A program made the translations under genes and the position numbers. The notes under the pieces are model-generated. The model searched no databases, had not been told where the DNA came from, and was given only the letters and a program-made list of their open reading frames with translations. A DNA stretch of 64,000 bases from Acidobacteriaceae bacterium (GTDB taxonomy: Bacteria; Acidobacteriota; Terriglobia; Terriglobales; Acidobacteriaceae), in NCBI GenBank assembly GCA_031296325.1, contig JARLFY010000030.1:1-64000 (forward strand), read 5' to 3'. Every line of letters begins with the position of its first letter. Positions within the stretch are counted from its first letter, which is position 1. This document shows positions 14,492-34,926 of this stretch, piece after piece.

Positions 14492-14676
14492 GGCTTAATT
14501 CTCCTGATTGGAAGGTCAAGACGAATTCTAGCATCCAAATCGGGAACAAGCGAATAAAAAACGAACTGTTCGCCAGATTGTTTTCCTTCCAGTCCGCTGA
14601 GCCGCTGAATTCCGGGCATTACAGCGAAATTTCGCCACGTTCCCCCGTAAGCGTATATCCTAGTTTCAATAGGTAT

Positions 14677-14801
14677 ACGTCTTCAGGGCGGGGTGCGATT
14701 CCCCACCGGCGGTGATAGCCCGCAAGCGCCTGCGCAAGCAGGGTCAGCAGATCTGGTCAGATTCCAGAGCCGACGGTAACAGTCCGGATGAAAGAAGATG
14801 T
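14677..14801 (+). promoter_or_regulatory. FMN riboswitch (RFN element)
   Basis: TCTTCAGGGCGGGGTGCGATTCCCCACCGGCGGTGATAGCCCGCAAGCGCC...GGTCAGCAGATCTGGTCAGATTCCAGAGCCGACGGTAACAGTCCGGATGAAAGAAGA: conserved RFN core immediately upstream of ribB. Confidence 0.96.
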
Positions 14802-14900
14802 ACCAGTCGACCATGGGCCACAGAGATCGCGGCCAGTTTGCTCTGCTTGGGATGTTCGCGCCCTGAAACGCCTGCCTCTGATCCTGCGAGGAGCGTCAAA

Positions 14901-27675: not shown

Positions 27676-27727
27676 ACCGACCACGGATAAACACGAATGA
27701 ACACGGATTAAAGACAGAACGATCTTG
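27676..27727. repeat. Left arm of ATCCGTG-type inverted repeat (interrupted copy)
   Basis: ACCGACCACGGATAAACACGAATGAACACGGATTAAAGACAGAACGATCTTG. Confidence 0.8.
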
Positions 27728-27857
27728 TTAGATATTTCCTGTATTGCGATAGACCATAATTATTTGTCATTCCGCAGCCATTATTTGTCATTCCACAGCG
27801 AAGCGGAGAAATCTGTTTTTTTCGTTGCACCACGTCCACGCCATTTAGGTGAAATGC
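27728..27857 (+). repeat. Type-B dispersed repeat nested in the ATCCGTG repeat
   Basis: GCGATAGACCATAATTATTTGTCATTCCGCAG...TTTGTCATTCCACAGCGAAGCGGAGAAATCTG...GCCATTTAGGTGAAATGCT. Confidence 0.75.
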
Positions 27858-27895
27858 TCTTATCCGTGAAGATCCGTGTTTATCCGTGGTCGGTT
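27858..27895. repeat. Right arm of ATCCGTG-type inverted repeat
   Basis: TCTTATCCGTGAAGATCCGTGTTTATCCGTGGTCGGTT. Confidence 0.8.
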
Positions 27896-29906: not shown

Positions 29907-29943
29907 GCGCTGGTTCGTCGTTGTAATTCTGGAGTGACTTCCC

Positions 29944-30069
29944 GTACTGAATTGTCGTTCCGTATTGGATTGTCATTCCGTATTGGATTGCCATTCCGTA
30001 TTGGATTGCCATTCCGTATTGGATTGCCATTCCGTATTGGATTGCCATTCCGTATTGGATTGTCATTCC
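29944..30069. repeat. 18-bp tandem repeat x7, consensus GTATTGGATTGYCATTCC
   Basis: Seven contiguous 18-bp units, inner four identical; the array continues directly into a type-B dispersed repeat. Confidence 0.97.
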
Positions 30070-30129
30070 GTAGCGAAGCGGAGGAATCTGCTTTAGCCTT
30101 TGCCTGTTTTGATTGTCATTCTGAACGAA

Positions 30130-31637: not shown

Positions 31638-32681
31638 ATGCTCCTCGAAGGCCTGCAAATCCCGGTGACAACGCCCTTCTACCCAGACGGGCGTCTGAAC
31701 CTGCCCAAGCTGGACGCGAACGTTGCGCGCACCTCGAAGTCCTCTGCCGCTGGCCTCATCCTCCTTGGTCCAACCGGCGAGCCGACGCTGCTCTCCGACG
31801 AGGAGACGCGCGAGGTTCTTCGCGTCGCAGCGCAGGCCGCAGCGACGGAGAAGGTTCTCATCGCTGGAATCAGCCGCGACAGCGTGCGCGCCACCCTAGA
31901 CCTTGCCGACTTCGCAGCCGAGCAGGCCTACGATACCGTCCTCGTCTCCGCACCATCAATTTTCACTTCGGAAGATGAAGCCCACGGTCGTGAGGTGCTC
32001 ACCTACTTCCAGACCGTCGCCGACCGCTCGCCTCTTCCCGTCGTTCTACTCAGCACGATCAGCAGCGCTCTCTCGTCTGATATGGTCGTCGAACTCGCCG
32101 CGCATCCCAACATCATCGGCCTGATCACGCATCGCTCCCCTGCGGCCATCGCCGAGTTTCTCTCCCGCACCACAGTCGTCGAGCGCGAGGTTCCCGTTAC
32201 GATGGTCTTCGCCGCCGTCACCGAGCGCATGAGGCGAGCCGCAGCACAGTGCGCTACCCGCAGTCTCGTCTCTGCCGCCAGCCTGGCCGGAACAGCAATC
32301 GTCGAAGCCCCGCCCGCCGTCCGGCCTCTGCGTACCCGCAGCAAGACGGTCGGCTTCCAGATCCTCAGCAGTTCCACGCAGTCCATCCTGAAAGCTCTCC
32401 GCGCCGGAGCCGTTGGAGCTGCGCCCAGCCTCGCCGCCGCCGCTCCGCAGGCCTGCTACGAGGTCTACGCTGCATGGAAGGACGACGACCAGCCGCTCGC
32501 CGAAGAGAAGCAGGCTCGCCTGCGCGAGGCCGCAGTCCTCGCCGAGTCCAGCGTCGGCAGCCTGAAGTTCGCCTGCGAACTCAACGGCTACTTCGGAGGC
32601 CTGCCGCGCCTTCCCCTGCTCCCTCCCACCGGCGACCAGCGCGCCGCTCTGAAACCGCTCCTACAACAACTTCACAACTAG
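31638..32681 (+). CDS. DapA/DHDPS-family protein (dihydrodipicolinate synthase / N-acetylneuraminate lyase superfamily)
   Basis: GLQIPVTTPFYPDGRLNLPKLDANVARTSKSSAAGLILLGPTGEPTLLSDEETREVLR; conserved N-terminal half, divergent C-terminal half. Confidence 0.78.
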   Translation: MLLEGLQIPVTTPFYPDGRLNLPKLDANVARTSKSSAAGLILLGPTGEPTLLSDEETREVLRVAAQAAATEKVLIAGISRDSVRATLDLADFAAEQAYDTVLVSAPSIFTSEDEAHGREVLTYFQTVADRSPLPVVLLSTISSALSSDMVVELAAHPNIIGLITHRSPAAIAEFLSRTTVVEREVPVTMVFAAVTERMRRAAAQCATRSLVSAASLAGTAIVEAPPAVRPLRTRSKTVGFQILSSSTQSILKALRAGAVGAAPSLAAAAPQACYEVYAAWKDDDQPLAEEKQARLREAAVLAESSVGSLKFACELNGYFGGLPRLPLLPPTGDQRAALKPLLQQLHN

Positions 32682-32701
32682 CAGTCCAGACGAGACAAGC
32701 G

Positions 32702-32779
32702 CCGACCACGGATTGACACGGATTAAAGACAGAACGGTCTTGCTTTTATCCGTGAAGATCCGTGTTGATCCGTGGTTGC
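32702..32779. repeat. Intact ATCCGTG-type inverted repeat (hairpin-forming)
   Basis: CCGACCACGGATTGACACGGATTAAAGACAGAACGGTCTTGCTTTTATCCGTGAAGATCCGTGTTGATCCGTGGTT; same family as 27676-27895. Confidence 0.85.
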
Positions 32780-32889
32780 TTCCGCTTTCGATTCTGAACT
32801 GTTCCCGCGTAGAATTTGCGAGAAAAAATTGCGAGAAAAATCGACACCCCTTGCAACCAATCTTCTTCCGATGTAGTCTTACTGGCAGG

Positions 32890-32988
32890 ATGAAAAAGCG
32901 CTCGCTCCAGTCCGGCTACTTTACCTACCCCTGCCTTTGGTGGCAGGGAGCGGGTCAGCTAGGCTTGCGAGCACCTCTGAATCGATAA
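32890..32988 (+). CDS. Candidate 32-aa leader peptide upstream of aroK (MKKRSLQSGYFTYPCLWWQGAGQLGLRAPLNR)
   Basis: Short ORF with clustered aromatic codons TAC TTT ACC TAC CCC TGC CTT TGG TGG, followed by a terminator; weak SD. Confidence 0.4.
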   Translation: MKKRSLQSGYFTYPCLWWQGAGQLGLRAPLNR

Positions 32989-33028
32989 AAAAAGATCGAA
33001 CTTCAGAGCATCCGCTATATTAGCTGAG

Positions 33029-33056
33029 CCGCGACCCTAACATGGTCGCGGTTTTT
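33029..33056 (+). terminator. Strong Rho-independent terminator between the leader ORF and aroK
   Basis: CCGCGACC-ctaacat-GGTCGCGG-TTTTT. Confidence 0.9.
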
Positions 33057-33127
33057 CTTTGCTCCACAGTTGTCTCTTCAGCAACTAAGCGATTGCAGTT
33101 AGCGTTACACCTTACAAGGAGCCGTTT

Positions 33128-33736
33128 ATGAACGTCCAGTCCGCCATCGAGTCCCACACTAACGCGACCGCGCCCGCGCATCTTCGTCGCCTCGTCCTCT
33201 CCGGCTTCATGGGTGCGGGCAAGACCACGGTCGGACGCCTGCTTGCCGCTCGCCTCAACTGGGAGTTCCTTGATCTGGACGCCTACATCGAGGCGCGCAC
33301 CGGCCTCACCATTCCCTCGCTCTTTTCGCTGCACGGCGAGCCGCGCTTCCGCCAGCTTGAGTCGCAGGCTCTGGCCTCCGCCCTCGGTCGCTCGCAGCTC
33401 GTTCTGGCTCTGGGAGGAGGAGCGCCCGAGGTCCTCACCAACCGCCTGCTTCTGGAGCAGACTCCTGCCACCGCGACGATCTTTCTCAACGCGCCCTTCC
33501 CTGCTCTCTTCGACCGCTGCATGTTACAGGCCTTGAACCCCGCAGTTACATCGCCCGACCAGGCCAACTCTGCCCAGCCCGAACAGATCCGCCCCTTGCT
33601 CGCCGACCCCGCCATCGCCGAGGCGCGCTTCCTCGCCCGCCAGCCCATCTACCGCCGTCTTGCCCGCCTGACCATCGACACCGCCGACCTTACCCCGGAC
33701 GAGACCGTCGCCACGCTGCTCGCTCGCCTCATCTAG
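33128..33736 (+). CDS. aroK: Shikimate kinase
   Basis: LVLSGFMGAGKTTVGRLLAARLNWEFLDLDAYIEARTGLTIPSLFSLHGEPRFRQLESQAL, LALGGGAP. Confidence 0.9.
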   Translation: MNVQSAIESHTNATAPAHLRRLVLSGFMGAGKTTVGRLLAARLNWEFLDLDAYIEARTGLTIPSLFSLHGEPRFRQLESQALASALGRSQLVLALGGGAPEVLTNRLLLEQTPATATIFLNAPFPALFDRCMLQALNPAVTSPDQANSAQPEQIRPLLADPAIAEARFLARQPIYRRLARLTIDTADLTPDETVATLLARLI

Positions 33737-33828: not shown

Positions 33829-34926
33829 ATGCATCATAGTCTCAGCACCGAGGAGGAGACGCTGTCAACGCCGATTCAATCCGAGAGTTCGACCAGAGAG
33901 ATTCGCAGCCATATTCTCTTCACCATCGCGATCCTACTGGCGCTGGCGCTGGTCTGGAGACTGCGCGAGGTCTTGATCCTCATCTATGTCAGCGCGCTCT
34001 TCGCCGTAGTCCTCAGACCCATGGTCAACTCCATCATGAACCTGCGCGTGCGCGGCAGGCAGCCGATCACGCGTCCCGTTGCCATGCTGCTTTTGTTCAG
34101 TGCAGTCGTCATCGTGCTCACTCTGTTTCTGGTCGCTGGACTTCCCCCCGTCATCAACAACCTGCACCAGTTTGCCGATGACCTTCCCAACCGTATTCCT
34201 CCGATCGTCGCGCAACTCAAGCATCTTCCTCTGGCCGACAAGATTGGCGTCGACAACCTCACTCTGCGAGCCGAAAACGCACTCGACTCCACCGCAGCCT
34301 ATCTGTTCGCCTCCTTCCCCGATTGCATGGTGCGCCTGCTCGACCTGCTCACCGCGCTGGTTCTCTGCGTCTACTTCATGCTGGAGGGAGACAGCGCCTA
34401 TCGCTGGATACTCTCGCTCTTCTCTCCCGGATGTCGTCAGCGCCTCGACGCCACGCTACAGACCGCCGAGTTGCGCGTCAGCAAGTGGCTGCTTGGCCAG
34501 ACGCTTCTGATGCTGATTCTCGGCGTCTCCAGCACCATCGCCTTTGGCCTGCTGCACGTGCGCTACTTCTTTCTGCTCGGCGTACTCATGGGCCTGATGA
34601 ACATCATTCCCATCGCTGGAGGAATCGTCACCATCCTTCTGGTCGGGCTGGTCGCCGCACTCGACTCCTGGACCAAGATGGCTGGAGTCTTTGCCTTCTA
34701 CTTCCTCTACGTCAACGTGGAGAATGCCTATCTGACGCCGCGCATCATGAGCCACAGCGTCAACCTGATGGGACTCACGGTGCTGATCTCCTTCCTCGTC
34801 AGCACGGATCTGGCCGGAGTCACCGGAGCGCTGGTCGCCGTCCCCACAGCAGCCCTCCTCGTCGTCCTGATGGACGAGTACATCGTCCAGAAAGACCTGC
34901 CTGAACCGACTTCCCCTCCCGACTGA
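33829..34926 (+). CDS. AI-2E family transporter (PerM-like)
   Basis: LILIYVSALFAVVLRPMVN, ALVLCVYFMLEGD, GVLMGLMNIIPIAGGIVTI, VENAYLTPRIMSHSVNLMGLTVLIS. Confidence 0.92.
   Translation: MHHSLSTEEETLSTPIQSESSTREIRSHILFTIAILLALALVWRLREVLILIYVSALFAVVLRPMVNSIMNLRVRGRQPITRPVAMLLLFSAVVIVLTLFLVAGLPPVINNLHQFADDLPNRIPPIVAQLKHLPLADKIGVDNLTLRAENALDSTAAYLFASFPDCMVRLLDLLTALVLCVYFMLEGDSAYRWILSLFSPGCRQRLDATLQTAELRVSKWLLGQTLLMLILGVSSTIAFGLLHVRYFFLLGVLMGLMNIIPIAGGIVTILLVGLVAALDSWTKMAGVFAFYFLYVNVENAYLTPRIMSHSVNLMGLTVLISFLVSTDLAGVTGALVAVPTAALLVVLMDEYIVQKDLPEPTSPPD

Follow-up and report, generated by a model that had tools for sequence, protein, structure and literature searches.

Attenuators such as thrL and ilvL respond, through a single leader, to two or more end products of a branched pathway. 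The ilvBNC attenuator is a multi-amino-acid leader (PMC11857589), and the aroR leader of Corynebacterium glutamicum, which precedes the aroF operon and carries Phe-Tyr-Phe, is reported to respond to limitation for Phe and not for Tyr, as summarised in PMC11802643. In Sinorhizobium meliloti, the leader ORF of rnTrpL/peTrpL, which controls trpE(G) and concerns Trp, starts at the 5′ end of its RNA and also acts in trans (PMC7298713). Acidobacterial attenuators were left almost entirely unassigned in a 2010 survey (PMC2965389), and no attenuator of aroK or from an acidobacterium was found described in the open-access full text searched, the nearest being this survey and the aroR leader, with subscription journals outside the search.

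The DNA analyzed here, called the window throughout, is a stretch of 64,000 nucleotides from an Acidobacteriaceae bacterium whose GTDB genus includes records named Edaphobacter and Granulicella. Our main reading, to which we give a probability of roughly 0.88, is that the leader upstream of the shikimate kinase gene aroK in this window is a ribosome-mediated transcription attenuator that senses shortage of Phe, Tyr, and Trp. Computation supports it through conservation of the aromatic codons, helices that exclude one another, covariation, the spacing between promoter and ORF, and pathway-matched codons in related leaders; a start site, leader translation, termination, and a dependence on tRNA charging are what we infer from it.

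The leader upstream of aroK and its predicted folds

The aroK gene (33128-33736, plus strand; PF01202, E 1.3e-35) has its own Shine-Dalgarno sequence, AAGGAG, before the ATG, and the gene upstream of the leader encodes a DHDPS-family protein and ends at 32681, ~345 bp ahead of the terminator stem. The leader peptide ORF of 32 codons (32890-32988, plus strand) encodes MKKRSLQSGYFTYPCLWWQGAGQLGLRAPLNR, the aromatic core of which is kept in relatives. Its aromatic residues, Tyr10, Phe11, Tyr13, Trp17, and Trp18, are specified within the control codons TAC TTT ACC TAC CCC TGC CTT TGG TGG (32917-32943, plus strand), so the short ORF 5′ of the gene carries codons for end products of the pathway; this core, Y-F-T-Y-P-C-L-W-W, is a variant belonging to a sub-lineage. 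A predicted intrinsic terminator, GAGCCGCGACC-7 nt-GGTCGCGGTTT with a U-tract (33026-33058, plus strand; stem 33026-33054), lies between the leader ORF and the structural gene, and its stem covaries in relatives. The aromatic leader of 32 codons, the hairpins, and the terminator reported in a first-pass annotation of this DNA were all found where it had placed them.

On folding, the RNA from 32886 to 33060 was far more stable than shuffled versions of itself (z = -6.3). An outer helix, P0, supported by the MFE structure and by a partner test, joins GCTCGC (32900-32905) to GCGAGC (32967-32972) and, over 32900-32972, encloses the P1 hairpin CCCTGCC/GGCAGGG (32929-32948), which represents the pairing of segments 1 and 2 and, in the fold, is lengthened so as to tie up part of the antiterminator strand. 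That strand, segment 2 (GCGG-G-TCAGCTA, 32950-32961), pairs with segment 3 (TAGCTGA-G-CCGC, 33021-33032), which is common to the antiterminator and the terminator, through 11 pairs with one G-G mismatch, and cognate pairing exceeded permuted pairing. An intervening hairpin, CTCTGAATCGAT...GATCGAACTTCAGAG (CTCTGAA/TTCAGAG, 32975-33008), is also predicted by folding and holds the leader stop codon, TAA, in its loop. The TCAGCTA/TAGCTGA pairing had been put forward earlier with the reservation that it abuts the terminator stem; the pairing is present, but the reservation no longer holds, since GCGG/CCGC (32950-32953 with 33029-33032) extends it so that it shares seven bases with the 5′ arm of the terminator (33026-33036). 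By prediction, the antiterminator excludes both the terminator and the hairpin containing the control codons, and in the full-length leader RNA of the window, the terminator fold is more stable than the antiterminator fold by ~6 kcal/mol.

A structured 5′ region and a terminator preceding a biosynthetic gene would also be expected of a riboswitch, a T-box, or a protein-binding attenuator with a fortuitous ORF. No Rfam family reached threshold in this region of the window, with Rfam leader families unmatched at the gathering threshold in the window and also at E <= 5 in 32690-33130, and no Rfam leader, riboswitch, or T-box was present in 16 related loci, where a single unrelated match lay on the minus strand. 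Conservation of frame and codons, as found among the relatives below, plays no role in such switches, and we regard this reading as extremely improbable. Among other candidates, known RNA families including 6S RNA were ruled out for want of Rfam support at the locus, and weak matches to Burkholderia sRNA and microRNA families (E 0.0075-3.6) were judged to be chance. A MIR4380 match marks a palindromic dispersed repeat, rich in ATCCGTG, that lies just 5′ of the leader promoter (32700-32785), has 34 matches in the source genome, and has further copies in the window (27692-27727 and 27855-27890).

Other features of the window include an FMN riboswitch aptamer (14675-14803; Rfam RF00050, E 1e-25) and a tandem array of an 18-bp unit in 7.3 copies (CCGTATTGGATTGCCATT, 29942-30072) in the gap that follows a pilin-like gene. 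The aroK gene is followed by a gene for an AI-2E family transporter (33829-34926; PF01594), and in other loci (L216, L229, L267, and L270), too, aroK precedes a gene for a similar membrane protein.

Conservation of the leader, its helices, and its promoter

Sister species have DNA similar to the window leader upstream of aroK, and ~64 distinct aroK leaders, all Edaphobacter/Granulicella/Terriglobus-type sequences, were gathered from the upstream DNA of same-genus genomes and 80 named loci. No such leader was seen upstream of aroK in family f2, in other families of the class, or in Acidobacterium/Silvibacterium/Acidicapsa-type loci. Typical peptides are MSSRFQSAFFTFSYWRHPAASGVLACISENT and MSFRPTTGRFSYCYWYPPAARRRCALP. 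Conservation of the aromatic codons in relatives had been proposed as a check on the first-pass annotation, and it was borne out, with Phe, Tyr, and Trp codons occurring together in the core of 63/64 leaders and an aromatic fraction of 0.42 in the 12-codon core versus 0.05 elsewhere in the leaders. Fifty of them have a regular core, F-T/S-F/Y-x-Y-W; all 50 begin it with Phe and carry Trp, and 47/50 have Tyr at the Tyr position (TAT 25, TAC 22). Indels 3′ of the core shift the peptide frame (L064, L088, and L127), with the core and the segment-2 region kept, and the intervening CUCUGAA/UUCAGAG hairpin recurs in many leaders. As a separate observation, TTT encodes the first Phe of the core in all 50 regular leaders, as it does at 32920-32922 in the window, though TTC would serve, possibly as a result of selection for a slow codon or of an unrecognised RNA constraint.

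The order F-T/S-F/Y-x-Y-W is conserved beyond mere composition, as it would be if the nascent peptide itself arrested the ribosome in response to a small ligand such as an aromatic metabolite, with no part for codon starvation. The exchanges between Phe and Tyr and the insertions within the core are more easily reconciled with codon sensing than with a fixed arrest sequence, and leaders of the Phe/Tyr branch that lack Trp, described below, also fit codon sensing better; arrest by the peptide thus appears very unlikely.

In the general layout, segment 2 contains GCGGC, segment 3, the terminator 5′ arm, contains GCCGC, and segment 4 contains GCGGC again, and P1 in relatives pairs the region of the Tyr-Trp codons with segment 2, as in CCGCUACUGG...CCAGUAGCGG. 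Because the register of the outer helix varies, RNAalifold on a MAFFT alignment recovered nothing beyond the terminator and a helix of 3 bp, and duplex energies of cognate and permuted partners were therefore compared among representatives of the aroK leaders (40 for P0). Cognate partners were favored for P0 (z = -7.1), the antiterminator (z = -4.7), and the terminator (z = -7.5), compared to z of about -1 to -2 for control segment pairs; P1 alone was not significant in this permutation test of aroK leaders with strict representatives. In an alignment of 41 sequences across genes, P1 and the terminator had 93% of cells paired and covariation above all 500 shuffles, and the equivalent of P1, CCGCUAC/GUAGCGG, covaries. 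The antiterminator core GCGGC:GCCGC showed no covariation in the same alignment because it is nearly invariant.

The predicted promoter in the window (32851-32879, plus strand) is sigma-70-like and consists of TTGCAA (32851-32856), a 17-nt spacer, and TAGTCT (32874-32879), with the leader ATG 10 nt past the -10 box, so that the transcript is predicted to start at ~32886 with a 5′ UTR of ~4 nt. The same TTG...TANNNT layout was found in 62/62 scored aroK leaders compared to 5.3 expected from shuffles, and the distance from the end of the -10 box to the leader ATG is 7-12 nt in 59/62. A promoter is also present in 20/21 leaders of trpB, described below, with a spacing to the ATG of mostly 10 nt. 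Sequences resembling a Shine-Dalgarno are rare before the leader ORFs (2/62 aroK, 2/21 trpB), and the predicted 5′ UTRs of about 1-6 nt would make these ORFs near-leaderless. The poor Shine-Dalgarno of the window ORF, once listed as a weakness, is to be expected of an almost leaderless ORF with a promoter this close to the ATG in nearly all relatives, and drops out as an objection, given that a leaderless attenuator ORF is known in trpL of S. meliloti (PMC7298713). Taken together, the similarity in sister species, the core in ~64 aroK leaders, and the near-fixed spacing of the promoter indicate that the leader is not a product of chance.

Related leaders before other aromatic-pathway genes

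Covariance models were built from the aroK leaders and searched in genomes of the genus and the family. Nearly every genome of the genus gave a second full-length match, followed by trpB (TIGR00263), with leader peptides, e.g., MTTFSSRFWFTFRYWSSVAASAE, that end just past segment 2. The second copy in the source genome (G000:C8:6519-6691, L171) lies before trpB, and its leader, MTANFSRFSFTFRYWRTVAGSAE, stops right after segment 2. Across the Acidobacteriaceae, matches at E <= 0.001 were found in 70/161 genomes and 36/80 genera, and the genes that follow related leaders are those for DAHP synthase, prephenate dehydratase (alone or then DAHP synthase), chorismate mutase, trpB, and aroK. A second covariance model reached two further acidobacterial families, before prephenate dehydratase, which DAHP synthase adjoins in several cases. 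These full-length matches, rather than a tree, suggest that all copies may descend from one cassette.

The codon content of the core follows the downstream gene. Trp codons are present in 61/62 aroK, 21/21 trpB, and 26/35 DAHP synthase leaders and in 1/16 leaders of prephenate dehydratase or chorismate mutase, of which MFVDDRSRFYFYFYFPPSRGRG and MSRTRFSYAFTYRYFFGSGG are examples. By sequence, the contrast is 82/83 aroK/trpB cores versus 1/16 Phe/Tyr-branch cores (Fisher 1e-15), and by genus, 10/10 versus 1/8 (Fisher 2.5e-4); these 16 Phe/Tyr-branch leaders and the counts per genus were compiled manually, and the L220 leader was read by eye. This branch-matched content is the strongest evidence that the codons are read, and not merely the shape of the RNA.

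A promoter-like site, a compact fold, and a terminator together describe a discrete transcript, and a free-standing, trans-acting small RNA of ~170 nt that ends at the terminator, its place before aroK being incidental, would account for these; a small RNA would, in any case, arise from a terminated leader. A conserved aromatic reading frame would not be expected of such an RNA, nor would codon content that tracks the downstream gene or homologues beside aromatic-pathway genes, and we give this explanation very little weight. The attenuation proposed in the first-pass annotation is supported in outline by the conserved codons, the exclusive structures with their covariation, and the homologues before other aromatic genes. 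On balance, we favor a wider picture in which Acidobacteriota coordinate the aromatic pathway by a dispersed, homologous attenuator cassette in which the proportions of Phe, Tyr, and Trp codons are adjusted to the branch of the gene. It seems similarly plausible that this cassette comprises a promoter, a near-leaderless aromatic leader, an antiterminator, and a terminator, and that it stands before the genes for DAHP synthase, chorismate mutase, and prephenate dehydratase and before aroK and trpB.

A distinct, cysteine-rich leader ORF (MITRFANSCMCCCRCCCCGPVRVCE; MTIMSMSTCTCCCCSRGWVRVYG) was observed at L265:374-545 (G188:C1:5169873-5170044) and L215:331-481 (G113:C14:7230-7380), where it is followed by a terminator-like hairpin and then a peroxiredoxin-type gene, and is a candidate cysteine-sensing attenuator comparable to the mycobacterial polycysteine leaders.

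Modelled switching and relation to known attenuators

In the mechanism that we propose for aroK, transcription would start a few nt before the leader ATG. With ample charged tRNA-Phe, tRNA-Tyr, and tRNA-Trp, the ribosome would pass the aromatic core, segment 2 (GCGG...) would be kept within P0/P1 or masked close to the stop codon, and segment 3 would be free to pair with segment 4, halting RNA polymerase at 33026-33058. Once the supply of an aromatic amino acid runs low, the ribosome would stall on the Phe, Tyr, or Trp codons and open P0/P1, and segment 2 would then pair with segment 3, block the terminator, and allow aroK to be transcribed.

Stalling was modelled with the ribosome as a blocked stretch, and the probability of the antiterminator was calculated in transcripts truncated ahead of the 3′ arm of the terminator. 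A stall at the third-last aromatic codon raised this probability from 0.41 to 0.72 for aroK, from 0.55 to 0.91-0.93 for trpB, and from 0.32 to 0.75 for DAHP synthase, and a ribosome at the trpB leader stop lowered it to 0.09. In family averages, modelled stalling favors the antiterminator for most aromatic codons; for the last one, the outcome varies with the assumed footprint edge. The last Trp codon lies 12 nt from GCGG in 40/62 aroK and 19/21 trpB leaders, which is about the downstream reach of a ribosome. In the window, modelled stalls at Tyr10, Phe11, or Tyr13 gave full antitermination, and those at Trp17 and Trp18 gave partial antitermination (0.47 and 0.11), the latter with a footprint edge of +13, at which a ribosome on Trp18 masks part of segment 2. 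A stall on the second Trp codon may thus partly cover segment 2, and the window may be weaker in this respect than its relatives. The truncated window transcript already favors the antiterminator at equilibrium in the absence of a ribosome (0.96, or 0.56 by another measure), and the off state must therefore rely on earlier, co-transcriptional folding of P0/P1.

These results predict a function for an entire family of acidobacterial attenuators, with what appears to be a three-amino-acid aromatic sensor on shikimate kinase, and make the control of aromatic synthesis in abundant soil bacteria directly testable. They also provide a natural series in which one RNA architecture is kept and the codon content changes with the pathway branch, as well as a large set of near-leaderless leader ORFs.

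The proposed mechanism is of the classical type and works like trpL/pheL, in a family absent from Rfam. With the E. coli trpL/pheL systems (trp, pheA, and pheST), the acidobacterial leader shares a short ORF with control codons, the alternative 1:2, 2:3, and 3:4 pairings, and a predicted intrinsic terminator ahead of the biosynthetic gene; it differs in that it controls shikimate kinase, combines Phe, Tyr, and Trp in one core, has a near-leaderless ORF and a stop codon 3′ of segment 2 in an extra hairpin, and has no Rfam match. The thrL and ilvL leaders differ in sensing threonine/isoleucine or branched-chain amino acids and not aromatic ones. An attenuator ORF at the 5′ end of the RNA is shared with rnTrpL/peTrpL of S. 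meliloti (PMC7298713). The aroR leader of C. glutamicum is alike in placing an aromatic leader peptide before a common-pathway gene, that for DAHP synthase, but it belongs to another phylum, its summary mentions no Trp codons, and the likeness is one of function only (PMC11802643).
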